Position numbers and translations under genes: made by a program. 64,000 nt of DNA. It comes from Halostella pelagica (lineage in GTDB: Archaea; Halobacteriota; Halobacteria; Halobacteriales; Natronoarchaeaceae). A model generated the notes under the pieces. It was given only the letters and a program-made list of their open reading frames with translations. It was not told the DNA's origin and made no database searches. Of the stretch, positions 22,931-64,000 are shown piece after piece. Every line of letters begins with the position of its first letter. The stretch's first letter is position 1. The DNA lies in assembly GCA_005954745.1 (NCBI GenBank), contig CP040679.1, positions 62,001 to 126,000 on the forward strand. Reading direction: 5' to 3'.

Positions 22931-23470
22931 ACTATAGCTGTAAGATATAGGTATTAGATATAGATATGAGAAATACCTACAGGATATGACCCAATCCTGG
23001 ATCTGGCACGCAAGACTACTGCTTGAGGCGAGGAATAGCCCCAAGTCGGCCCTATTATGTCACCAGGTAGAAATATGACGCGATAGTATAGTTGATAGGT
23101 ATAGCTATATCGTATAGGTGTAACATATAGGTAAATGAGATAGTTGCCTCCAGTCAGCGATTATCCGTACCGTCGGAGTGATAGTCCGGAGTACACCGAG
23201 ACAGTTTCTCTATAGTCCATAACTATACGTCATAGCTATAGCTTAAACCCGTCCGTTGGATGAACAACTACTGTGAGCCCTGTTCCAGAGACGTGTTCAA
23301 GTCGTACGTGAAAAGTATAGATATTAGCTATAGGTATGACCTATACATTAGTCCCAGTTCGGACGCGAACTGAAAACACCCGCCGCAGTACTGCGGTTAT
23401 ATTCAATACTATAGTTTAGTCTTATAGCTATACTATCTAGCTATACACCATATTCCAACAATTAACCTAT
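22931..23470. repeat. AT-rich repeat array upstream of parA (putative centromere)
   Basis: Five clusters of short TATAG/CTATA words at about 22931-22970, 23083-23142, 23209-23245, 23311-23350 and 23405-23447, separated by GC-normal DNA. Cores include TATAGCTATA-like palindromes. A 27-28-bp word recurs at 22942-22969 and 23313-23339 with the pattern TATAnnTATTAGnTATAnnTATGA. Cluster spacing is roughly 95-150 bp. The whole 22798-23516 region has no gene. Its position directly before parA suggests the DNA site bound by the partition complex; origin iterons are an alternative, but no replication initiator gene is seen. Confidence 0.65.
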
Positions 23471-23516: not shown

Positions 23517-24374
23517 ATGTTAACCTACACGCCGGTGTCGGAGGCCGGAGGCGTCGGGAAAACGACGACTGCTGCGACACTCGCAGCGAGTCATGCGCGG
23601 GCGGGCCACGACGTTCTTGCGATCGATATGGATACGCAAAACGGAAGTCTCACGTATCTGTTCGGACCGGAGTACGACCGGGGCGACCCGGAGGTAGACA
23701 ATCTCGTTCGGCATCTGGTCGGACGACCGAAGGGGGACTTCCACGACCTCACGCACGAAGTGGGGAAGGGTATTGACCTGATCCCGTCTCACAACATGCT
23801 CGAAGACGTCCACGAGTTCCTCCTGAACGAGAAGAACCAGGCGGAGAAACTCGGCGAGTCGTACAGCATGTACCATCAGCTACACCGGGTACTCAGCGAC
23901 GCAAACGTCCGCGACGAATACGATGTAGTTATCGTCGATTCAGCGGGGAAGGCGGGTCCGATCCTCTACAACGCGCTCGTCGCGGTTCGGAACGTCGTCA
24001 TCCCATTTGAAGCGACCGCGAAAGGACAGGAATCTATCGAAGGGTTAGACGACCTGGTCGACGGACTCGAAAGCAACATCGGAGTGGACGTTGGCGTCCT
24101 GTCCGTCGTTCCGATCGGCTACAAGGATACTCGCGACCAGCGAGAGATCCTGAATGCCCTCCGTGAGAGCGGGTTCCCCGTTCCCGTCGTGATCGGGGAA
24201 CGCGGTTCGCTCATGGAGGGGTGCTGGAAAGAGCAGTGTAGCCCGTACGGGTACGTCGAGAACCACCGCGACCGTAAACGCGAGTACGAGATGGAGACGC
24301 TGGAGCAGTTCGACGACCTCGCTCGATATCTCGAACGGGAGGCGGGCGTCGAGCAACCGGAGGTGACAGCGTAA
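23517..24374 (+). CDS. parA: ParA-family ATPase (haloarchaeal type)
   Basis: A 285-residue ParA/MinD-like ATPase. The P-loop is EAGGVGKTTT with Lys15 in the GKT part; the signature lysine of the deviant Walker A motif (KGGxGKT) is replaced by alanine at residue 10. The Walker A' strand is LAIDMDTQNGS (about 34-44) and Walker B is YDVVIVDSAGKAG. A cysteine-containing segment, MEGCWKEQCSPYGY, lies in the C-terminal third. ParA proteins segregate DNA by forming ATP-dependent gradients on nucleoid DNA with a ParB-type partner. Haloarchaeal plasmids commonly carry this variant, to my knowledge. It is followed by a small gene with a one-base overlap (TAATG) and preceded by the repeat array. Confidence 0.88.
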   Translation: MLTYTPVSEAGGVGKTTTAATLAASHARAGHDVLAIDMDTQNGSLTYLFGPEYDRGDPEVDNLVRHLVGRPKGDFHDLTHEVGKGIDLIPSHNMLEDVHEFLLNEKNQAEKLGESYSMYHQLHRVLSDANVRDEYDVVIVDSAGKAGPILYNALVAVRNVVIPFEATAKGQESIEGLDDLVDGLESNIGVDVGVLSVVPIGYKDTRDQREILNALRESGFPVPVVIGERGSLMEGCWKEQCSPYGYVENHRDRKREYEMETLEQFDDLARYLEREAGVEQPEVTA

Positions 24375-26243: not shown

Positions 26244-26460
26244 CAGGGCGTATCCTCGTTTATGTCCGACACTATCGAACGGACGTTCTCCAGAAGGGGA
26301 CAAATGTGGCTGAAAGCAAGCAGCGTGCGACGGAGCGCGATTACAATACTACATCTGTAACGACGAGGCGAAAATCCGGAGCGAAATTCCGATCACCGGA
26401 GCAAAGAACGGCCCGTGAGACGGATAAACTGTCAGTCCGGATCGAACGAAGGCCCCCGGC

Positions 26461-27219
26461 TCAGGTGAGCATAAAGTCAAGTTGAATGACGTTCGCCGCA
26501 TTACGCAGGGCCTCACAGAGTTCATCTCGGCGATCAGGTCGTTTGAACTGGCTACATGGGCCGGAGACGCTGATAGAACCGAGGGGGTGATCGTCGACGA
26601 TAACGGGAGTGGCGATACAACACAGGCCGTCGACGCTTTCCTCGTTATCGAACGAGATACCGGCGTCGCGGATCTCGGCTAACTCCTCTTCCAGACCGTC
26701 CCGGGAGGTGATCGTCTGTTCCGTAAACCCCTCCAGACCGTGGCGCTCGATGATATCGTCGACTCTGTCGACGGGGAGATGAGCCAGAATGGCTTTCCCA
26801 GTGGCCGTGGCGTGCATCGGACGCTGTTCACCGAGGTTCATGTACGCCTGCGTCGAATTGCTAGAGTTCGTCGCGTACACGCACGTCCCCAGGCCGTTCT
26901 CCTCGATGACGAGGTTCGTCCGTTCCTCCACCTCGGCCGCGAGTTCGTCTACCTCCTCTTTCCCCTGCCGATACAGGTCAATACTGTGCTGTACTGTCGC
27001 TCCGAGCTGGAGGTACTGGCAACTCAATCTGTACAACCCATCTTCCTTGATCAGATATCCTGCCGAGGAGAGCGTGTTCAGATGCGTGTAGACGGTACTT
27101 TTCGGCAACGAAACCACGTCTGCGACCTCGGAGACGCCGATAGGACCGCGGCGCTGGATGACTTCGACGATGTCGAACGAGCGTTCGACAGCTCCGATAG
27201 TTTTCGAATCCGTATCCAT
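26461..27219 (-). CDS. IclR family transcriptional regulator
   Basis: A 252-residue regulator of standard IclR architecture. An N-terminal winged helix at about 8-70 has SEVADVVSLPKSTVYTHLNTL as helix-turn-helix. A C-terminal ligand-binding domain at about 80-250 has MHATATGKAILAHLP, typical of the effector pocket rim, and CCIATPVIVDDHPLGSISVSGP near the end. IclR proteins respond to small carboxylates and control catabolic operons. It sits directly downstream of the E1 alpha/beta operon, so it is the best local candidate to control that operon or the LUD/ABC operon. A TATA-like AAGTATATC on the minus strand lies 30 bp before its start. Confidence 0.92.
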   Translation of the reverse strand: MDTDSKTIGAVERSFDIVEVIQRRGPIGVSEVADVVSLPKSTVYTHLNTLSSAGYLIKEDGLYRLSCQYLQLGATVQHSIDLYRQGKEEVDELAAEVEERTNLVIEENGLGTCVYATNSSNSTQAYMNLGEQRPMHATATGKAILAHLPVDRVDDIIERHGLEGFTEQTITSRDGLEEELAEIRDAGISFDNEESVDGLCCIATPVIVDDHPLGSISVSGPCSQFKRPDRRDELCEALRNAANVIQLDFMLT

Positions 27220-41205: not shown

Positions 41206-42054
41206 TCAGCTCGGGTCCTCCATGAGCGTGGTCGCCTCCGTCCGGCCGAGGTCGCGGTACGTCTGGGTGAAATCATCGTAGAGGGACTCCCAGTCGTCCA
41301 TGTGGTTGCCGTCTCGACCGATCTCGGGGGGAAGGTCGGCGCTGGTGATCGTCCCGTCCTCGGAGATGGGAACGTCGAGCCCGTAGCTTTCGAGTTTCGG
41401 AACGACGTTCGAGAGCCACTCCTCGCCGAGTTCGTCGAGCGGTTCAGTGCGGTACTCGTTGTCGACGATCCGGGCTTCGACATCCGGGTCCGTCGGCTCG
41501 AAGAGAGTCAGCGCGTACGGGAACAGCCGGTCGACGGCCTCCTGAAGGCGACGCTGACCGTCGTCGTCGGAGGCAAGCCGATCGAGCCAACTCTCCGCGT
41601 GTTCGAGGTGATAGTCCTCCTCGCTCTGGATCTTCCCGACGCGGTCGCGGATCGGCCCGTACGACGAGTCTTCGAGCGCCTCCAGACGGAGGTCTTCAGC
41701 GACATCGTAGAGGTACGTCCGAACGATAGCGTCGCTCCAGTCGCCCTCCTCGAACGGCAGTTCCGTCATCGTGCTGTGGCGGAACGTCTCCGGATCGCGC
41801 TCGAAGAGCAGGTCCGGTTCGTCGTAGCCGAAGTCCTGTAGCAGGTCGTACCACAGCCTCGCGTGACCGAGTTCGTCCTGCGCAATGTTCGACAGGGCGA
41901 GGTCCGACTCCAGCGTGGGCGCGCGGACCTGCCACTCCGTGTATCGCTCGGCGGCGACGAACTCGTCGTCGCCGAGGCGATAGAGCAGGTGCTGCACCGC
42001 TTCCCGCTGGTCGTCGTCCAGGTCCTCGACCGGCGCGGCGGCAGTCGAAGACAT
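41206..42054 (-). CDS. paaC: Phenylacetyl-CoA epoxidase subunit PaaC
   Basis: A 282-residue helical protein of the PaaA/PaaC family. It has SNIAQDELGHARLWYDLL, carrying E61-x-x-H64, and SEEDYHLEHAESWLDRL in the second half. In the bacterial complex PaaC is the structural partner of the catalytic di-iron subunit PaaA, and these remnants of the ferritin-like fold are kept. An 8-helix bundle is predicted over the whole length. Its start ATG overlaps the paaB stop by one base (TAATG), placing it third in the operon paaA-paaB-paaC-paaD. Confidence 0.93.
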   Translation of the reverse strand: MSSTAAAPVEDLDDDQREAVQHLLYRLGDDEFVAAERYTEWQVRAPTLESDLALSNIAQDELGHARLWYDLLQDFGYDEPDLLFERDPETFRHSTMTELPFEEGDWSDAIVRTYLYDVAEDLRLEALEDSSYGPIRDRVGKIQSEEDYHLEHAESWLDRLASDDDGQRRLQEAVDRLFPYALTLFEPTDPDVEARIVDNEYRTEPLDELGEEWLSNVVPKLESYGLDVPISEDGTITSADLPPEIGRDGNHMDDWESLYDDFTQTYRDLGRTEATTLMEDPS

Positions 42055-42368
42055 TAGCTATCCCCCCGCTGGCGTTCGGCCTCCGCCTGCTCGTTCGCCG
42101 ATTCCTCGACTTCCTTGGCGGGCGGCTCGATGTTGTAGGCGGTCGACCAGCGGTAGGACTTGTCGGTCGTCCCGCCGAAGCTCGTTTCCTCGGCGTCCAC
42201 TTCGCCGACCTCCTCCTGCGGAACGACCCACAGGCTGTTGGTCGGTTTCCGGCGACCGTGCTGGATCTGCGCGAACAGCTTCGCCATCTCGCGGTCCGGT
42301 GCGTGGACGTTTCCGCAGTGCGTGTGGTACTCGCCCGTCTTCTTCTGTCGGAATACTTCCCAGATCAT
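42054..42368 (-). CDS. paaB: Phenylacetyl-CoA epoxidase subunit PaaB
   Basis: A 104-residue protein. MIWEVFRQKKTGEYHTHCGNVHAPDREMAKLFAQIQHGRRKPTNSLWVV is unmistakably PaaB: the length, the HxGxVHAPDxExA tract and the RR-x-x-x-SLWVVP segment match bacterial PaaB. The last 25 residues form an acidic tail typical of halophiles. PaaB bridges the PaaAC heterodimers. It begins 6 bp after the paaA stop and overlaps paaC by one base. Confidence 0.95.
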   Translation of the reverse strand: MIWEVFRQKKTGEYHTHCGNVHAPDREMAKLFAQIQHGRRKPTNSLWVVPQEEVGEVDAEETSFGGTTDKSYRWSTAYNIEPPAKEVEESANEQAEAERQRGDS

Positions 42369-42373
42369 GGTTG

Positions 42374-43315
42374 TTAGTCGGCTGCGGTCGGCGTGTGGCC
42401 CGCCGTCGGCTGGTCGTCTCCCTCGATCGCGTCACGAACCCACTCGACGGCCTCCTGTGCGTTGGCACGGCCCTCGATCTGGCCGACGCCCGGTTCGTAG
42501 TCGTTTTTCGCGATGGTGAAGAACTCGTCCCAGTCGAGGTCGTCCTCTTCGATCTCGAACGTCCCGTCGTCGTTTTCGCGGATACGCGGCTCGTCCGGGA
42601 TCTCCAGGTTGTACTTGCGCGCCTTCGGCAGGTACTGGTTGAGGAAGGCGTTGCGGAGCTCGTCGTTGGTCATCGTCTTCAGCCCGACTTCAGCGGCGAA
42701 GTCGTGGTGGGTGGATTTGTCGTCCGACGGGCCGAAGAACTGGATGATGCGGGGCCACCACTCGTCGAAGGCGTCCTGAAGCATCTCCTGTTCCTTCTTC
42801 GAGCCGGTCGCCAGTTCGCGCATGATCGACTCGCCGTGTTTGACGTGGAACCCTTCCTCGAAGCAGATCTTGTCCATGGCGTGGGCGTACGGTTCCCAGC
42901 TGGTGCGTTTCAGCGTCGCCTGACGGCGCATGGCCGCGCCGTCGACGAAGAAGGCGATCATGGGGATCTCCGCCCAGTTCTCCATCGGATAGTGGAAGCA
43001 GTTGAGGAACTTCCCCTTCCCGTTCGCCAGTTCGTCCAGCATCTCTTCGCGGGTTTTGATGCCGAGCGATTCGGCGGCCCGGTAGAGGAACTGGCCGTGG
43101 CCGATCTCGTCTTGCACCTTGGCGCTGAACGCGAGCTTCCGGTCTATACTCGGCGACTGGCGGATGAACGGTCGCTCCAGGTACGCCCCCATGATCTCGC
43201 TGTTGGCGTGGAACTGGATCATGCGGGTCGCCGCCTTGCGGTACTCCTCCGGCAGGTCGTCCCCGGGGTTGAACTCCCGCGGACCGGCGCGTTCTTTCAC
43301 TTCGTCTATGTTCAT
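42374..43315 (-). CDS. paaA: Phenylacetyl-CoA epoxidase catalytic subunit PaaA
   Basis: A 313-residue di-iron protein. The helix-bundle ligands are visible as Glu40 (NSEIMGAYLE), Glu70-x-x-His73 (QDEIGHGQ) and Glu154-x-x-His157 (CFEEGFHVKHGE). The sequence FLNCFHYPMENWAEIPMIAFFVDGAAM matches bacterial PaaA. PaaA adds one oxygen atom to the ring of phenylacetyl-CoA, giving the 1,2-epoxide. The reductase PaaE that normally feeds electrons is absent nearby. It is the first gene of the operon; a TATA box at 43374-43381 and an inverted repeat at 43347-43362 precede it. Confidence 0.96.
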   Translation of the reverse strand: MNIDEVKERAGPREFNPGDDLPEEYRKAATRMIQFHANSEIMGAYLERPFIRQSPSIDRKLAFSAKVQDEIGHGQFLYRAAESLGIKTREEMLDELANGKGKFLNCFHYPMENWAEIPMIAFFVDGAAMRRQATLKRTSWEPYAHAMDKICFEEGFHVKHGESIMRELATGSKKEQEMLQDAFDEWWPRIIQFFGPSDDKSTHHDFAAEVGLKTMTNDELRNAFLNQYLPKARKYNLEIPDEPRIRENDDGTFEIEEDDLDWDEFFTIAKNDYEPGVGQIEGRANAQEAVEWVRDAIEGDDQPTAGHTPTAAD

Positions 43316-57821: not shown

Positions 57822-58232
57822 ATGACGGCGACCGGGGTCGGTGAACACCCCGATGTTAAGAACTGGCAGCACGTTCTCCCGTGTATGCCAGGTACCGACG
57901 ATATCGACAACCCCGAAGCGTTCGCCGACGACCTCCCACTGACGGCGGTGTTCGGAGACCACCCGAAAACCCGGATCGTAAGCGCGCTGTTGACCGAGTC
58001 GGAGAACCCGACGACCGACTTCAGCGTGAGCGAGATCGCACGGATATCCGGCGTCGACGACGATAGGGTCGCCGACCACCTCGACGAACTCCGGTCTTCG
58101 GGGATCGTCGTCGAAACGGACGAACTCGACGACACAGCCATGTACAGGCTCGACGAGGACCGCGCTGTCGTCGCAGACGTTCGCCAGTTGCACGAGGATC
58201 TGTTCGAGGAAACGACCGGATCCGCCGAGTAA
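57822..58232 (+). CDS. Winged-helix regulator of the CoA-transferase operon
   Basis: A 136-residue protein. After a lead of about 45 residues, an HTH is visible: TAVFGDHPKTRIVSALL, FSVSEIARISGVDDDRVADHLDELRSSGIVVE, with wing DDTAMYRLDED. It is a MarR/ArsR-like winged helix of haloarchaeal type. Its ATG directly abuts the beta-subunit stop; an internal ATG at 57885 is possible. As the last gene of the CoA-transferase operon it probably controls this operon, the divergent importer, or both. Confidence 0.82.
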   Translation: MTATGVGEHPDVKNWQHVLPCMPGTDDIDNPEAFADDLPLTAVFGDHPKTRIVSALLTESENPTTDFSVSEIARISGVDDDRVADHLDELRSSGIVVETDELDDTAMYRLDEDRAVVADVRQLHEDLFEETTGSAE

Positions 58233-58341: not shown

Positions 58342-59976
58342 ATGGCGCTAAGAGAGCCAGCGGAGAACTTACCAGACGAATCAGCGAAGCCGGACTATAT
58401 TCACGCCGTCCCCGAGGCCCACTACCCAAAGCGAATCAACGTCGTCGACGAACTCGTGGACACACACGTACAGGACGGACGCGGGGACAACGTGGCGATC
58501 CACTTCGAGGACGAAGAGATCACCTACGCGGAACTACAGGAACGAGTGAACCGGATGGGGAACGCGCTCCTCGATATGGGGATCGAAGCGGGTGACCGCG
58601 TCGCCGTTCGGTTCCCGAACCGCCCGGAGGCTATCGTCAGCTGTCTCGCCATCCAGAAGATCGGTGGCGTTGCGCTTCCGTCGATGAAGCTCCTCCGCGC
58701 GAAGGAACTCCGGTACATCATCAACAACGCCGAAGCGCGTGCGATCGTCGTCTACGACGACCTGCTCGACGAGGTCGAGAACGCGATGTCCGACCTGGAG
58801 ACGGTCGAAAACGTGATCGTCGCCGAGCGAAACGGCGTCGAACACGACCGGCACAGTTACGACGACCTGCTGGACTCGGCGAGCACCGACCTCCAGAGCC
58901 GCGAGACTAAGCGCGACGACCCCGCGCTGATGCTTTACACCAGCGGGACGACGGGGCGGCCGAAAGGCGCGATCCACACCCATCGACAGATCCTCGCATC
59001 CGCCGACACCTACGCTCGGTACTGTCTGGAACCCTCGGAAGACGACGTGTTCGGCGGTAATCCGCCGCTACCGTTCGCGTATGGGTACGGGGATCTCGTC
59101 ACGTTCCCGTTACGGTTCGGCGGGAGCACGAGTATCGTTGAGGACGCGGACCCGGGCGACCTGCTCGAAGCCGTCGAGAACCACGGTATCACGGTGCTCT
59201 GTTCGATCCCGACGGCGTTCAACCAGATGCTCTCGGAGTATCCGGACGGGCCCGAGACGTACGACGTGTCCTCGCTACGGATCGGCGTGAGCGCCGGCGA
59301 GCCGCTGACGCCGACGACGTTCGAATCGTTCCGAGACGAGTACGGGGTCGAGTTACTCGACGGGATCGGGACGACGGAGATGCTACACATCTTCATCAGT
59401 CACCGCCACGACGAGGAGATAGACCCCAGCGCGACCGGGTTCCCCGTTCCGGGATACGAGTGCAAGATCGTCGACCCCGACACCGGAGAGGAGTGTGAGC
59501 GCGGCGAACCGGGACTACTGGCGGTCCGCGGTCCGACCGGGATCGAGTACTGGGGCCGGCCGGACAAACAGGCGGACGCCGTGAAGGACGGCTGGTCGTA
59601 TCCGGGAGACATCTTCGTCCAGCGAGAGGACGGTCGCCTGGAGTACAAGTCCCGGAACGACGACCTCATCATTTCGAGCGGATACAACATCCCCGGGCCC
59701 GAGGTAGAGGCAGTCATTCAGGAGCAAGAGTCCGTATCGGAAGTAGCCGTCATCGGGAGCCCGGACGAGGAACGCGGCGAGATAGTGAAGGCGTTCGTCG
59801 TGCTAACAGAGGACCAATCGGCTAGCGACGCTCTGGTCGAGGAAATACAGAACCACGTGAAAAACTCCCTTGCACCGTACAAGTACCCGCGCGAGGTGGA
59901 GTTCGTGAGCGAACTTCCCCGGACCGAGACGGGGAAGATCCGTCGGACCGAACTCCGGGATCAAGAGCAGTCGTAG
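58342..59976 (+). CDS. Aryl-CoA ligase (benzoate/2-aminobenzoate type)
   Basis: A 544-residue adenylate-forming ligase. The ATP loop is YTSGTTGRPKG (199-209), the catalytic lysine is Lys532 in TGKIRRTEL, and the A8 hinge is KSRNDDLIISSGYNIPGPEVE. The central part (NPPLPFAYGYGDLVTFPLRFGGSTSIV) resembles benzoate-CoA and 2-aminobenzoate-CoA ligases. LLDGIGTTEMLHIFIS is the usual adenine-binding tract of this group. It would make an aryl-CoA, a logical substrate for the diverged PaaABCD set 1.7 kb downstream. The exact acid is unknown. Confidence 0.88.
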   Translation: MALREPAENLPDESAKPDYIHAVPEAHYPKRINVVDELVDTHVQDGRGDNVAIHFEDEEITYAELQERVNRMGNALLDMGIEAGDRVAVRFPNRPEAIVSCLAIQKIGGVALPSMKLLRAKELRYIINNAEARAIVVYDDLLDEVENAMSDLETVENVIVAERNGVEHDRHSYDDLLDSASTDLQSRETKRDDPALMLYTSGTTGRPKGAIHTHRQILASADTYARYCLEPSEDDVFGGNPPLPFAYGYGDLVTFPLRFGGSTSIVEDADPGDLLEAVENHGITVLCSIPTAFNQMLSEYPDGPETYDVSSLRIGVSAGEPLTPTTFESFRDEYGVELLDGIGTTEMLHIFISHRHDEEIDPSATGFPVPGYECKIVDPDTGEECERGEPGLLAVRGPTGIEYWGRPDKQADAVKDGWSYPGDIFVQREDGRLEYKSRNDDLIISSGYNIPGPEVEAVIQEQESVSEVAVIGSPDEERGEIVKAFVVLTEDQSASDALVEEIQNHVKNSLAPYKYPREVEFVSELPRTETGKIRRTELRDQEQS

Positions 59977-60103
59977 CGCGGCCTTCTTCGCTGCCGTATG
60001 ACAGTTCGCTACTCCTTCTGCAGTCGTACCGTCGGGAGCAACTTCTCCAATGATACCAATGCGACAGTGCCGAACGAGGAAGATCCACGTGTTGCCTATC
60101 GCA

Positions 60104-60546
60104 TGTATACGGTGTTCGTATACGGTAGTAGTCTGGAATATGGTAGGACCCCGTCTTCCCGGTTGCGCGCACGTGTCTGATCTGACGGTACAGGCACAAC
60201 CCTGCAAACAAACACACCCTTAGTCCGTGTTATTTTGCGACGTATTCGAAGTCGTATTCGCTGTTCGTATACGCGAGTGATTCCCCGGGCAGCGAAAACA
60301 CGTCGTACCGGGCCGGTGAGACAACACACACTTAGGGTGTGTTTTTCGCCTCTACTTCACCAGACCCCTGAGAGATGCCGGTCACAAAAAATAACCAGTC
60401 CCGGAAACTGAACGCGTTCGTCAAGATAACTACGACAGCGGGAGTACGGCCGAGAGTTGTCGTACATTCAGAAGTGTTCCCAGTCGAGCGGCTAAGACAA
60501 CAACCTATAGGGTGTGTTTTGAGAGCGTATACGGTATCCGTATACG
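60104..60546. promoter_or_regulatory. Array of paired CGTATACG sites and AGGGTGTGT words
   Basis: Three paired sites with a 5-bp spacer: TGTATACG-GTGTT-CGTATACG (60104-60124), CGTATTCG-CTGTT-CGTATACG (60253-60273, with a further half site CGTATTCG at 60241-60248) and CGTATACG-GTATC-CGTATACG (60526-60546). AGGGTGTGT occurs at 60334-60342 and 60509-60517, and in reverse at 60212-60220. The whole 59977-60630 stretch has no convincing gene and lies between convergent genes. A related paired site lies upstream of the second paaA. Confidence 0.6.
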
Positions 60547-60630
60547 CCCGATACTACGGAGCGGTAGCTCACCAAGAACGGGACAAGAGAACTCCGACGC
60601 TACGACGGCAAGGGAGGAAACTCTGACTCC

Positions 60631-60915
60631 TTAGGGACTCTCGTCCGTTTCGATCTTCATGTCGGATAGGGGCCTTGCGATGCAGGTCAGGACGTACCCT
60701 TCCTCCTTCTCGCTGTCCGAGAGGAACATGCCCTCGGTCTGTTCTACGTCACAGTCGGTCTCCCGCATCGCACAGCAGACGCCGCAGATTCCCATACGGC
60801 ACTGATAGGGGAGGTCGATACCCGCTTCCTCCGCGGCTTCGAGGATCGACTGGTTCTCCGGGACTTCGAGCGTCACGTCTCTGTCGACGAGTTCGACGGT
60901 GTGCGTCTCGACCAT
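60631..60915 (-). CDS. Plant-type 2Fe-2S ferredoxin
   Basis: A 94-residue ferredoxin. Ligands are Cys39, Cys44, Cys47 (C-x4-C-x2-C in CRMGICGVC) and Cys78 (LTCIARP). The fold equals the C-terminal domain of PaaE, the reductase of the phenylacetyl-CoA oxygenase, but no flavin domain is fused. An extra Cys48 and Cys55 are present. The acidic region fits a halophilic protein but lacks the long acidic insertion of haloarchaeal respiratory ferredoxins. It lies between the aryl-CoA ligase and the second oxygenase, so it is the likely electron donor to one or both oxygenases (inference). Confidence 0.9.
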   Translation of the reverse strand: MVETHTVELVDRDVTLEVPENQSILEAAEEAGIDLPYQCRMGICGVCCAMRETDCDVEQTEGMFLSDSEKEEGYVLTCIARPLSDMKIETDESP

Positions 60916-60920
60916 GTGAA

Positions 60921-61415
60921 CTACCGTTCCTCGGTTGATTTTTCGTACACGTGCTCGACGGGTTCGAAGCCGAACTCCTCGTACACCTGCGCGGCATCAT
61001 CGTCGCCCTCCATCACGTCGATCCGGTAGAAGTCGACCTCGTGGGGGCTGCCGGCGAACCAGTCGTGGGCCTCGTCGAGCAACGCTTTTCCGACGCCTTT
61101 CCCCTGATGCTCGGGTTCGACGTAGTGCCCGTTGATGTACCCGTGGTCTTCGAGTCGGAATATCGGATGGTCCCCCATCACGCGCCCCTCGAGAGCGCCG
61201 ATGAGTTCTCCGGTCTCCTCGTCTTCCGCGACGACGACCATTCCGTACTTCGAATCGACGAGTTGGTTCTCGAAATACTGCAACCAGCGGTCGTCGGCGT
61301 CCTCTTTGTGACGGTATCTGTCGTCGTACTTGGAGAGGTGGTCGGTGAATCCGTGCCAAAGGTCGAGCAGTTCCTCTCCGTCGTCCAACGTCGCCTGTCG
61401 AACGTCGTACGTCAT
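60921..61415 (-). CDS. GNAT acetyltransferase
   Basis: A 164-residue GNAT protein. The acetyl-CoA loop is EPEHQGKGVGKALLDEAHDWF (Q-x-x-G-x-G), preceded by GYINGHYV and followed by FYRIDVMEGDDDAAQVYEEFGF. Residues 10-40 (LLDLWHGFTDHLSKYDDRY) are a variant first helix. ATG 61415 is chosen; a start at 61442 would add nine residues. It ends 5 bp before the ferredoxin gene on the same strand, so the two may share a transcript. No substrate can be proposed. Confidence 0.85.
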   Translation of the reverse strand: MTYDVRQATLDDGEELLDLWHGFTDHLSKYDDRYRHKEDADDRWLQYFENQLVDSKYGMVVVAEDEETGELIGALEGRVMGDHPIFRLEDHGYINGHYVEPEHQGKGVGKALLDEAHDWFAGSPHEVDFYRIDVMEGDDDAAQVYEEFGFEPVEHVYEKSTEER

Positions 61416-61640
61416 GTGATACCGAACGAACCCGATTGACAAAAAAGATCCTGTCGAACGGATCTGATATCCCCCGAGGGATCAAACAGCGAAGACCGGC
61501 CGCACGAGAGTTCATCTCCTACGTTCGCGGGTGCGTGTCGACTATGGTCGAGTTCACGTTCGCCGTTGAATGGGGTACCGGTCCCCCCGCACGTTGTGGA
61601 CTACTCGATTCAGACCCTTACGAGGATCCGGGCGTCAGAG

Positions 61641-61677
61641 CCGATACGCGCAACGTATACAGAAAACAATTATAAAC
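61641..61677 (+). promoter_or_regulatory. Operator-like paired site and TATA box of the second paaA operon
   Basis: CCGATACG-CGCAA-CGTATACA (61641-61661) has the same 8-5-8 layout as the three sites at 60.1-60.5 kb. It is followed 7 bp later by TATA-like ATTATAAAC (61669-61677). Transcription is expected near 61700, just before ATG 61708. A protein bound here would act right at the BRE/TATA element. 61443-61640 holds no gene. Confidence 0.6.
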
Positions 61678-61707: not shown

Positions 61708-62628
61708 ATGCCCACAGAGAAACAGTTGAAAGAACAGGTGCAAAACGGGAAGATGATCGAGTCCGAGGAGGAGATGACGGAGGGCTACAAGGAGGCGCTC
61801 AAGCAGATCCTGCTGGTGTCCGGAGACACCGAACTGATGAGCGCGCCGGCGTACTACGACCAGTCGCTGAACGCGCCGTCGCTCGACGCACGTACCTCTT
61901 GCGTGAGCGTCATTCAGGACGAACTCGGTCACGGCCACATCGCGTACCGCCTGCTCGAAGACCTCGGCGAGGACCGCGAGGAACTCATCTACGGGCGCGA
62001 ACCGTACGAGTTCCGGAACACGTACGGGTTCGACCAGCACATCGAGAACTTCGCCGAACTCGTGACCGCCCACGGGATCTTCGACCGTGCGGGGATGGTC
62101 CTGCTCGGCGATATCTACGAGAACACGTCGTACGCGCCGTGGAAGCGCGCGCTCACGAAAGTCGAGAAGGAAGAGCAGTTCCACCTGCGCCACGGCGAGA
62201 CGTGGATGCGCCGGCTGGCGAACAAGAACGACAAAACCAAAGACAAGCTACAGGAAGCCGTCGACTGGATGTTCCCCATCGGCGTCGAATGGTTCGGCAT
62301 GCCCGACGACAAGAAGCGCAACACCGACCAGTTGGACTACCGCATCAAGGGCAAATCCAACGACGAACTCAGACAGGACTGGCTCTCGCGGACGCTTCCG
62401 CTGATGGACGAACTCGACCTGGACGTGCCGGCCCACCACGACGAGGAGGCCGACGAGTACGTCCTCGAATACGACCTGCCGATCGCTTTCGACGCTGAGA
62501 ACAAGGACTGGCGGATGAACGAGCACATTTCATGGTCGGACGTGCTCGACCGCTGGCGGGACCGCGGCCCCGCCAACGAGAAGTACGTGAACCTCATCCA
62601 GTCCGGAAAAGTCGATGTCGGTATCTGA
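61708..62628 (+). CDS. Second PaaA-like di-iron oxygenase subunit
   Basis: A 306-residue member of the PaaA/PaaC family, only distantly like the first PaaA. Candidate iron ligands are kept: Glu42 (SGDTELMSAP), Glu72-x-x-His75 (IQDELGHGHIAY) and Glu156-x-x-His159 (KEEQFHLRHGETW). It lacks the PaaA words FLNCFHYPMENWAE and has NTYGFDQHIENFAELVTAHGIFDRAGMVLLGD instead. So it should be a catalytic subunit acting on a different CoA ester. It is the first of four tightly packed genes (A-D-B-C); TATA and an operator-like site lie directly upstream. Confidence 0.87.
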   Translation: MPTEKQLKEQVQNGKMIESEEEMTEGYKEALKQILLVSGDTELMSAPAYYDQSLNAPSLDARTSCVSVIQDELGHGHIAYRLLEDLGEDREELIYGREPYEFRNTYGFDQHIENFAELVTAHGIFDRAGMVLLGDIYENTSYAPWKRALTKVEKEEQFHLRHGETWMRRLANKNDKTKDKLQEAVDWMFPIGVEWFGMPDDKKRNTDQLDYRIKGKSNDELRQDWLSRTLPLMDELDLDVPAHHDEEADEYVLEYDLPIAFDAENKDWRMNEHISWSDVLDRWRDRGPANEKYVNLIQSGKVDVGI

Positions 62629-62632
62629 TACG

Positions 62633-63028
62633 ATGGCAACGACAAACCGAAACGTCGACAGTTCGGCCGGACCGCCACGAACCAGCGAATTCATCGAGAA
62701 CCGTCGGACGGACTCGACCCCGTTCGAGGAGCGCCTGTGGGACGCGGTCGACGAGATCCCCGACCCGCACATCCCCGTCAGCCTCGTCGAGATGGCGATG
62801 GTCTACGACGTCGAGGAGACGGACGGACACGTCGACGTCGAGATGACGTACCCCTGCATGGGATGCCCGGCGTACGACATGATCCAGAACGACGTCCGGA
62901 GCTGTCTCCGGGTCATCGAAGGCGTCGAGTCCGTCGACGTCGAGGTCGTCTGGGACCCCGTGTGGTCGAAAGACATGCTCACAGACGAAGTTCGCGAGAA
63001 AATGCGAGAATCCGGGATCGGACTATGA
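62633..63028 (+). CDS. Second PaaD-like MIP18 domain protein
   Basis: A 131-residue protein whose residues 30-131 form the MIP18/DUF59 fold: LWDAVDEIPDPHIPVSLVEMAMVYDV, then VEMTYPCMGCPAYDMIQNDV, then VVWDPVWSKDMLTDEVREKM. The conserved cysteine is part of a CMGC pair, unlike the YTGC of the first PaaD. There is no zinc ribbon and no separate ribbon gene follows in the window. It begins 4 bp after the PaaA-like stop and overlaps the PaaB-like gene (ATGA), so it sits second in the operon instead of last. Confidence 0.88.
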   Translation: MATTNRNVDSSAGPPRTSEFIENRRTDSTPFEERLWDAVDEIPDPHIPVSLVEMAMVYDVEETDGHVDVEMTYPCMGCPAYDMIQNDVRSCLRVIEGVESVDVEVVWDPVWSKDMLTDEVREKMRESGIGL

Positions 63029-63246
63029 GCGACACTGAGAAATACGAAGTGTTCGCCCGCAAGAACCAGGGCGACGATACGAAACACGTCGGCAACGTCA
63101 GCGCGAAAAACGGAAGGCTGGCCAAGATGTACGCACACAACACGTTCGACGAAGAGGACTGGGACTACATGGCGGTCGTCAGACAGGGAGACCTCCTCGA
63201 GGTCGAACACGGATCCCCCAGAACCACGGTGACCACCGATGAGTGA
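63025..63246 (+). CDS. Second PaaB-like subunit, 73 residues
   Basis: A short protein starting MSDTEKYEVFARKNQGDDTKHVGNVSAKNGRLAKMYAHNTFDEEDWDYM. The order V-F-x-R-K-x2-G, H-V-G-N-V-x-A, A-x-x-Y-A and the aromatic end fit PaaB, but it is 30 residues shorter than the first PaaB and lacks the RR-x-P-x-x-SLWVV segment. Its ATG overlaps the PaaD-like stop, and its stop region overlaps the next ATG (63239). It would bridge the A and C subunits of the second complex. Confidence 0.8.
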   Translation: MSDTEKYEVFARKNQGDDTKHVGNVSAKNGRLAKMYAHNTFDEEDWDYMAVVRQGDLLEVEHGSPRTTVTTDE

Positions 63247-64000
63247 CTGGCCAGATGAGGCGGTCGAGTACGTTCAGGCGATCGCGGACACGAAGCTCGT
63301 CCTCGGCCACCGGAACGCCCAGTGGAGCCTGGCCGGGCCGTCGCTGGAGGACGACATCGGCGGGTCCAGCGCCGCCCAGGAGGAAGTCGGCCACGTCCGA
63401 CAGTTGTTCCGCATGCTCCAGCAACAGGGACGGGACGACGACTGGCTCCAGGGCGACCGCGATCCGACGGAGTTCAACAACGTCTCCGCGCTCGACGTGA
63501 TAGACGGCGAGTGGCCCGAGTACGTGGCGACGATAGCGCCCGCTGACCGGGCCGCGTGGTATCTCCTCGATGCGATCGACCGGAACGACATGGACGGGAT
63601 GATCACGAAGATCGGGGAGGAAGAGTACTTCCATCTGGAGTATCACGACGCCAGACTGGAGACGCTGGCGGAGGAGTACCCCAGCAGGATCCAGGAGACG
63701 CTCGAAGAGACGCTTCCGCAGACGATGGCGTTTATCGGCCCGTCTACGTACGACGACGACGCCGACCCGCTGCTTGACGCCGGGTTCACCGACACCTCGA
63801 TAGCGTCTATCAGAGACTCGTTCGCCGACCATTACCGGGAACTGTTCGACGACACGCCGGTGTCGCTCGACGGCGTCGACTGGACGGTCCCCGACCCGGA
63901 CGACTGGGACGAAACCCGCCGTCGAGTCGGGTCGGGCGGCATCAGCGATGAGGACATCCGTCAGCTCACCGGCGAAGAGAACGCGATGTTCGCGAGGTGA
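63239..64000 (+). CDS. Second PaaC-like subunit
   Basis: A 253-residue helical protein of the PaaA/PaaC family: LGHRNAQWSLAGPSLEDDIGGSSAAQEEVGHVRQLFRML, with Glu49-x-x-His52, and IGEEEYFHLEYHDARLETL in the second half. The opening YVQAIADTKLVLGHRNAQW corresponds to the PaaC start. The TGA at 63998-64000 is the last codon of the window, so the gene is complete but anything following is unseen. The ATG overlaps the PaaB-like gene by 8 bp. It is the structural partner of the PaaA-like subunit. Confidence 0.87.
   Translation: MSDWPDEAVEYVQAIADTKLVLGHRNAQWSLAGPSLEDDIGGSSAAQEEVGHVRQLFRMLQQQGRDDDWLQGDRDPTEFNNVSALDVIDGEWPEYVATIAPADRAAWYLLDAIDRNDMDGMITKIGEEEYFHLEYHDARLETLAEEYPSRIQETLEETLPQTMAFIGPSTYDDDADPLLDAGFTDTSIASIRDSFADHYRELFDDTPVSLDGVDWTVPDPDDWDETRRRVGSGGISDEDIRQLTGEENAMFAR

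Follow-up and report, generated by a model that had tools for sequence, protein, structure and literature searches.

Organization of the Locus

The window, meaning the whole 64,000-nucleotide stretch of Halostella pelagica DNA analysed here (G000:C2:62001-126000), lies on a replicon of 323 kb; the haloarchaeal genome to which it belongs has 3.94 Mb. Toward its right end, two operons converge on a gap of 654 bp (59977-60630). The left border of the gap is the 3' end of a gene for an AMP-forming CoA ligase (58342-59976, forward strand), the final gene of a CoA-transferase operon, whose product belongs to the benzoate-CoA ligase family (TIGR02262, 377.9 bits; cut-off 375.25). The right border is the 3' end of a 2Fe-2S ferredoxin gene (60631-60915, reverse strand), which shares its operon with an upstream gene for a GNAT acetyltransferase (60921-61442, reverse strand). 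Divergent from the GNAT gene, an operon encoding PaaA/D/B/C-like oxygenase proteins starts at 61708 with the gene for the PaaA-like subunit (61708-62628, forward strand).

Scores against the NCBIfam models for phenylacetyl-CoA epoxidase are far under their cut-offs for both PaaA (126 versus 280) and PaaC (51 versus 133). Because of these scores and the accompanying benzoate-CoA-ligase-family gene, the substrate of this second Paa-type cluster is probably an aryl-CoA other than phenylacetyl-CoA. The replicon carries two differing Paa-type oxygenase clusters, at 41206-43315 and 61708-64000 of the window. Viral contigs were searched for related genes, and none were found.

Repeated Octamers and Palindromes in the Gap

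An earlier note on this DNA, made from the sequence itself, described four sites consisting of paired palindromic octamers separated by exactly 5 bp. All four are present, at 60104-60124, 60253-60273, 60526-60546, and 61641-61661. The first three lie, as described, in a convergent region of about 650 bp that is free of genes; conservation of an open reading frame in it (83 amino acids; 60375-60626, forward strand) was looked for among relatives, and none was found. The sites are termed OCT here and are defined as pairs of the octamer YGTATACR whose starts are 12-13 bp apart. The claim of a uniform 5-bp spacer holds for some sites only, as the spacers are 4 or 5 bp long.

Read from left to right, the gap contains OCT pair 1 (TGTATACG-N5-CGTATACG; 60104-60124), which has an equivalent left cluster in relatives; an OCT triple (CGTATTCG-N4-CGTATTCG-N5-CGTATACG; 60241-60273); and the perfect OCT pair 3 (CGTATACG-N5-CGTATACG; 60526-60546). 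The triple results from an extra octamer, CGTATTCG at 60241-60248 with a spacer of 4 bp, so that the pair previously reported at 60253-60273 is real but forms the right part of a longer site. Triples with 12/13-bp spacing also occur in other loci. Two 21-bp palindromes of the form AACACNNNCTTAGNNNGTGTT (PAL-B), located at 60211-60231 (AACACACCCTTAGTCCGTGTT) and 60323-60343 (AACACACACTTAGGGTGTGTT), had been overlooked. The direct repeat TAGGGTGTGTTTT (60508-60520) is probably a leftover of the right half of PAL-B.

With up to 3 mismatches allowed, the paired pattern has 5 matches in the window, compared with 0.36 expected, and 5 matches were reached in none of 100 shuffled sequences. With at most 1 mismatch, CGTATACG-N5-CGTATACG has three sites in the 3.94-Mb genome, all within 60104-60546, and the reversed control has none; the concern that the motif might occur at background frequency genome-wide is therefore answered in favor of the finding. 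The two PAL-B copies in the gap are likewise the sole matches in the genome (at most 1 mismatch). About 15 sites with 3 mismatches are scattered elsewhere in the genome, compared with 3 for the reversed control. A degenerate paired site, CGTATAGGTGTAACATATAGG (window 23111-23131), is found in the divergent region upstream of a ParA-like gene (23517-24374) and could be due to chance.

Conservation of the Composite

For comparison, 44 haloarchaeal loci were collected starting from PaaA; apart from the annotated named plasmids, gene calls in these genomes are simple calls made for this analysis. About 27 loci have an OCT-PAL-OCT composite that separates the CoA ligase from the ferredoxin/PaaA module. 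Among them is every one of the 26 loci of a single PaaA clade, so that the possibility of a motif unconserved in relatives with the same genes also came out in the finding's favor. The presence of the composite requires 3 state changes on the tree, versus 13.1 with shuffled labels. The 26 clade loci share ancestry and therefore are not 26 independent observations. No composite was found in the other loci compared, including those of Haloferax, Haladaptatus, Halogranum, and several Halobellus; Halegenticoccus soli has a single weak OCT pair and otherwise no composite. Loci of the Haloarculaceae type contain weak pairs in two of three cases. In L120, L121, and L244, all of the Haloarculaceae type, the gap holds a third palindrome variant, similar to ATAACNNNNGTACNNNNGTTAT, with weak octamers or none.

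The composite has a regular composition. The consensus YGTATACR derives from 135 octamers in 27 loci, and neighboring octamers are spaced almost solely by 12 bp (22 cases) or 13 bp (54 cases). Each composite includes two or three OCT clusters, mostly 110-290 bp apart, with one or two PAL copies between them. Natrialbaceae, Halalkalicoccus, and others have the type A palindrome (TTACANNNGTAYNNNTGTAA), and the six-member subclade to which the window belongs has type B. A plasmid locus of Halosolutus gelatinilyticus that was checked after the motifs had been defined contains an OCT triple, two PAL-A copies, an OCT pair, and the promoter octamer. Within sets of close relatives, identity is 92-98% at OCT positions and 93-100% at PAL positions, versus 61-85% in the rest of the gap. 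Between genera, mostly short motif blocks alone can be aligned, and no cross-genus conservation was found in the gap outside the motifs. SHRA6 (L062) retains a complete composite even though its ligase and GNAT genes run in tandem; convergence of the flanking genes is therefore not essential.

Among 293 genomes of the order, the OCT pair (at most 1 mismatch) occurs in 17, including that of the window, and the reversed control occurs in none. Placement was determined for 16 of the 17: the pair lies in the ligase-ferredoxin gap or its split halves in 11 (the window's own genome included), at a second-composite locus in one, and within called genes in four.

The Octamer at the paaA Promoter

The fourth site (61641-61661, forward strand) consists of a degenerate left half (ATACG), a 5-bp spacer, and CGTATACA, and lies immediately 5' of the paaA BRE/TATA element (GAAAACAATTATAA; 61662-61675, forward strand), which is near-invariant across genera. 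By its sequence alone this site falls into the background-like 3-mismatch class, and it is judged real because it is conserved in relatives. The placement right before the TATA box noted earlier thus proves to be a conserved feature: CGTATACA adjoins the paaA BRE/TATA in 25 of the 26 composite-bearing clade loci, including the window, and SHRA6 has TGTATACA at this position. In the 25 members, GATAC-N6-CGTATACA precedes GAAAACAATTATAA, each in this form or in one close to it. A looser form, ATACR-N4/5-YGTATACR, is found in 16 genomes, mostly at the loci described here.

Where the composite is missing, the corresponding position of the paaA promoter has no octamer; the composite and the promoter octamer are inherited together. 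As the octamer is kept in the composite clade and absent from composite-free loci, the site is in all likelihood functional, despite the decay of its left octamer to ATACG. The paaA copy has the geometry of a promoter-proximal activator site, being a semi-palindrome immediately 5' of BRE/TATA. A promoter-like geometry was not found at the gap sites, where TATA-like elements occur in 2 of 96 OCT-cluster flanks (2.9 expected).

Second Composites

Natrialbaceae and Halorubrum saccharovorum carry a further OCT/PAL composite, located downstream of an aldehyde-dehydrogenase/acyl-CoA-dehydrogenase operon. It is present in eight genomes (G149, G116, G317, G325, G218, G254, G204, and G239; loci L161, L162, L163, L164, L035, L039, L045, and L245). 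In seven of these (G116, G149, G254, G239, G204, G325, and G218), the two composites are on one contig, 16-25 kb apart, around pathway genes; in G317 they are on separate contigs. These distances were taken from coordinates, and the bracketing itself was checked in the sequences of Halostagnicola larsenii and Haloterrigena turkmenica. Over 35 kb of the H. larsenii plasmid, the sole OCT pairs and PAL-A copies are those at 87.19-87.37 and 112.66-112.93 kb, which bracket exactly the genes from acyl-CoA dehydrogenase through ligase. In H. turkmenica, about 22 kb separates the two composites. Two genomes of the same genus as the window (G006 and G035) have their ligase and ferredoxin operons about 13.5 kb apart, with a composite at each 3' end. 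An IclR gene adjoins one of the two composites around this segment (L047, L048, L049, and L165).

No OCT-type promoter was found beside the second composites. In several genomes, these loci have a differing conserved promoter-like sequence, CTTATAGATGACTCA or similar, between divergent aldehyde dehydrogenase and thiolase genes.

Candidate Binding Proteins

Clustering of neighboring genes, together with small open reading frames, identified no regulator gene conserved near the composites. A local regulator was rejected as the OCT binder, the neighbors being solely enzymes, transporters, PaaB, and a zinc-ribbon open reading frame, as was the product of a winged-helix gene (57822-58232) that is found in few loci. 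Among the literature matches listed, none concerned this octamer in archaea.

IclR-type proteins are good candidates for the binder of PAL-A, because PAL-A is intergenic and lies near IclR genes. In 386 kb of sequence, all 20 PAL-A sites (at most 1 mismatch) are intergenic, versus 23% for background. Among the matches listed, 39 of 104 PAL-A sites have an IclR gene within 1 kb, and many lie immediately 3' of such a gene; the null value is 2.9, based on random positions, genic ones included, on the same contigs and on the sites and IclR genes listed. PAL-A occurs genome-wide in relatives, with up to at least 20 sites per genome (control, 0), and PAL-B is found solely at OCT loci. In the window, a copy of TTACANNNGTAYNNNTGTAA with one mismatch (26341-26360) adjoins an IclR gene (26461-27219). 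IclR was rejected as the binder of OCT: Halorubrum aquaticum and H. cibi retain both OCT and PAL-B and have almost no IclR proteins, so that both motifs would need other proteins.

PAL-A also flanks genes for the rod-determining factor RdfA, 9 of 17 of which have a copy within 2.1 kb (e.g., G021:C10:66391, G068:C4:228757, and G254:C1:687700). In H. aquaticum and H. cibi, the sole exact PAL-A copy of the genome precedes rdfA by about 50 bp. Four type-B genomes (G000, G006, G035, and G021) have a second RdfA paralogue and an SMC-like gene 16-18 kb from the composite; in the window's genome, this pair (G000:C2:136994-139735) is about 16 kb past it. As no PAL-B was found beside the RdfA paralogue, the RdfA/SMC-like pair is kept as a lead to the PAL binder.

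Possible Functions of the Composite

The comparison of loci demonstrates conserved placement, spacing, and composition of the composite, its co-inheritance with the promoter octamer, and its near-restriction to one pathway. These features point to a previously undescribed long-distance switch or boundary element. Of the functions proposed in the earlier note, a regulator-binding array is strongly supported by the sequence comparison: solely OCT and PAL positions are conserved, the spacing is 12-13 bp, and a promoter copy is inherited with the array. A DNA-loop anchor is plausible, and more so given that two composites enclose the cluster in seven genomes; looping itself stays conjectural.

We consider it probable, if only just, that the gap is a two-factor regulatory array acting at a distance, with the OCT factor also acting at the paaA promoter, and that it serves one aryl-CoA (probably benzoyl-CoA-like) degradation cluster. 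A single pathway-dedicated DNA-binding protein would recognize OCT. From the BRE-proximal site, this protein may activate paaA by aiding the recruitment of TFB/TBP, and the composite arrays would allow its high-affinity, cooperative binding. A second protein would bind PAL. The composite would act over about 1.1 kb on the paaA promoter; the simplest means would be a DNA loop to this promoter or to the second composite, and the 16-25 kb between composites may be a second range of such action. As expected of a loop or enhancer array, separated clusters of the same site occur at several ranges (mostly 110-290 bp within a composite; about 1.1 kb; 16-25 kb in seven genomes). Against a pure enhancer stand the second composites, beside which an OCT promoter would be expected. 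The reading as a whole is also weakened by two Haloarculaceae-type loci (L120 and L121), where OCT-like pairs occur and the promoter site is missing, and by the finding of no conserved regulator gene near the composites. A role for IclR at type B composites is countered by the missing link between PAL-B and IclR genes.

The MetJ met boxes are tandem 8-bp operators spaced 8 bp from start to start. OCT arrays resemble them in being tandem palindromic 8-bp boxes, suited to small dimers that bind cooperatively, and differ in the start-to-start distance of 12-13 bp and in the box sequence; no MetJ-like protein was found in the locus. In haloarchaea, CsmR has the semi-palindromic site TATCA-N4-TGATA upstream of BRE/TATA, which has been read as activating (PMC13286277). 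The paaA copy of OCT has the same position and symmetry; in contrast to CsmR-type operators, OCT has another sequence, and most of its sites are distant from promoters, arrayed in tandem together with another palindrome. Haloarchaeal catabolic clusters are activated by IclR-type proteins such as XacR, GacR, RhcR, and MscR (PMC11519228). The present locus is also a catabolic cluster, and in relatives the type A palindrome shows a strong association with IclR genes; yet OCT and PAL-B persist in nearly IclR-free genomes, and the composite of the window has no adjoining IclR gene. A distant cis element that alters gene expression in a haloarchaeon, as is proposed here from sequence, has been described for the halolysin gene sptA of Natrinema (PMC6085418); as far as described there, the enhancer serves a single gene and is unlike the composites in having no paired arrays.

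The main rival explanation holds that proteins bound at the 3' ends of operons stop or insulate transcription and so keep the cluster apart as its own unit, and that the promoter octamer is a second use of the OCT protein. This reading has a lesser but appreciable chance of being correct. It is favored by the placement of composites where the ligase, ferredoxin, and acyl-CoA-dehydrogenase operons end, mostly in convergent gaps; by the separate composite at each 3' end where the operons are about 13.5 kb apart; by the composite pairs that enclose pathway genes over 16-25 kb, where the outermost operons face outward; and by the second composites that have no OCT promoter nearby. The tandem arrangement in SHRA6 and the tandem gaps that hold the second composite in G204 and G325 argue against it, and a plain roadblock leaves two distinct motifs and arrays 110-290 bp apart unexplained. 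Sequence does not distinguish looping from boundary function. In a rather unlikely, tentative reading, the composites form pairs of anchors, for boundaries or for loops, at which two-protein arrays would fold or insulate the catabolic cluster of about 20 kb as a unit.

Other explanations are much less probable. Composites that serve recombination, segregation, or replicon maintenance (parS- or att-like) and move with the gene cluster would fit the frequent location on secondary replicons, the bracketing of a segment by two copies, and the pair around about 13.5 kb in G006 and G035. This is improbable, as the composite tracks the pathway genes rather than the replicon and also occurs on large chromosomes (G204 and G127), no conserved recombinase or partition gene lies beside it, and the same octamer is part of the paaA promoter; the window's ParA-like gene (23517) is about 37 kb away, so that the arrangement of a plasmid centromere is lacking. 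A small RNA or small protein encoded in the gap, with OCT and PAL as its promoter elements, is similarly improbable. In its favor are the length of the gap, which is large for a convergent region, and the folding energy of the gap as RNA, which is below that of shuffled sequences (z = -2.3), in part from the self-complementary octamers. Against this, no sequence body, structure, or open reading frame is conserved between genera, Rfam gives no match at E values up to 1, TATA-like boxes beside OCT are at background and supply no core promoter, and the gap has no annotated gene in plasmids of Haloterrigena turkmenica, Halosolutus, and Halostagnicola. An RNA hairpin formed by two octamers was rejected, since triple arrays and 12/13-bp spacing do not fit it, and the small RNA locus suggested in the earlier note is unsupported. 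An accidental clustering of a frequent octamer is ruled out: the window does contain single CGTATACG octamers in some number (4, compared with 1.2 expected), but the pair spacing, the genome-wide restriction to this locus, the conservation across families, and the later-checked Halosolutus locus contradict it.

Significance

Archaeal gene regulation has mostly been described through sites adjoining the core promoter. The two-factor array proposed here consists of a conserved motif pair that is distant from promoters, at the 3' ends of operons of one pathway, and also present within one promoter of that pathway. OCT and PAL are defined DNA baits for finding a new regulator, and they make action at a distance, or the boundaries of gene clusters, testable in haloarchaea. 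The central palindrome switches in concert between clades (type A or B) and the octamers stay constant, a natural case of regulatory rewiring. If the composites do act as paired anchors, they would be an archaeal counterpart of insulator-bounded domains at the scale of a single gene cluster.
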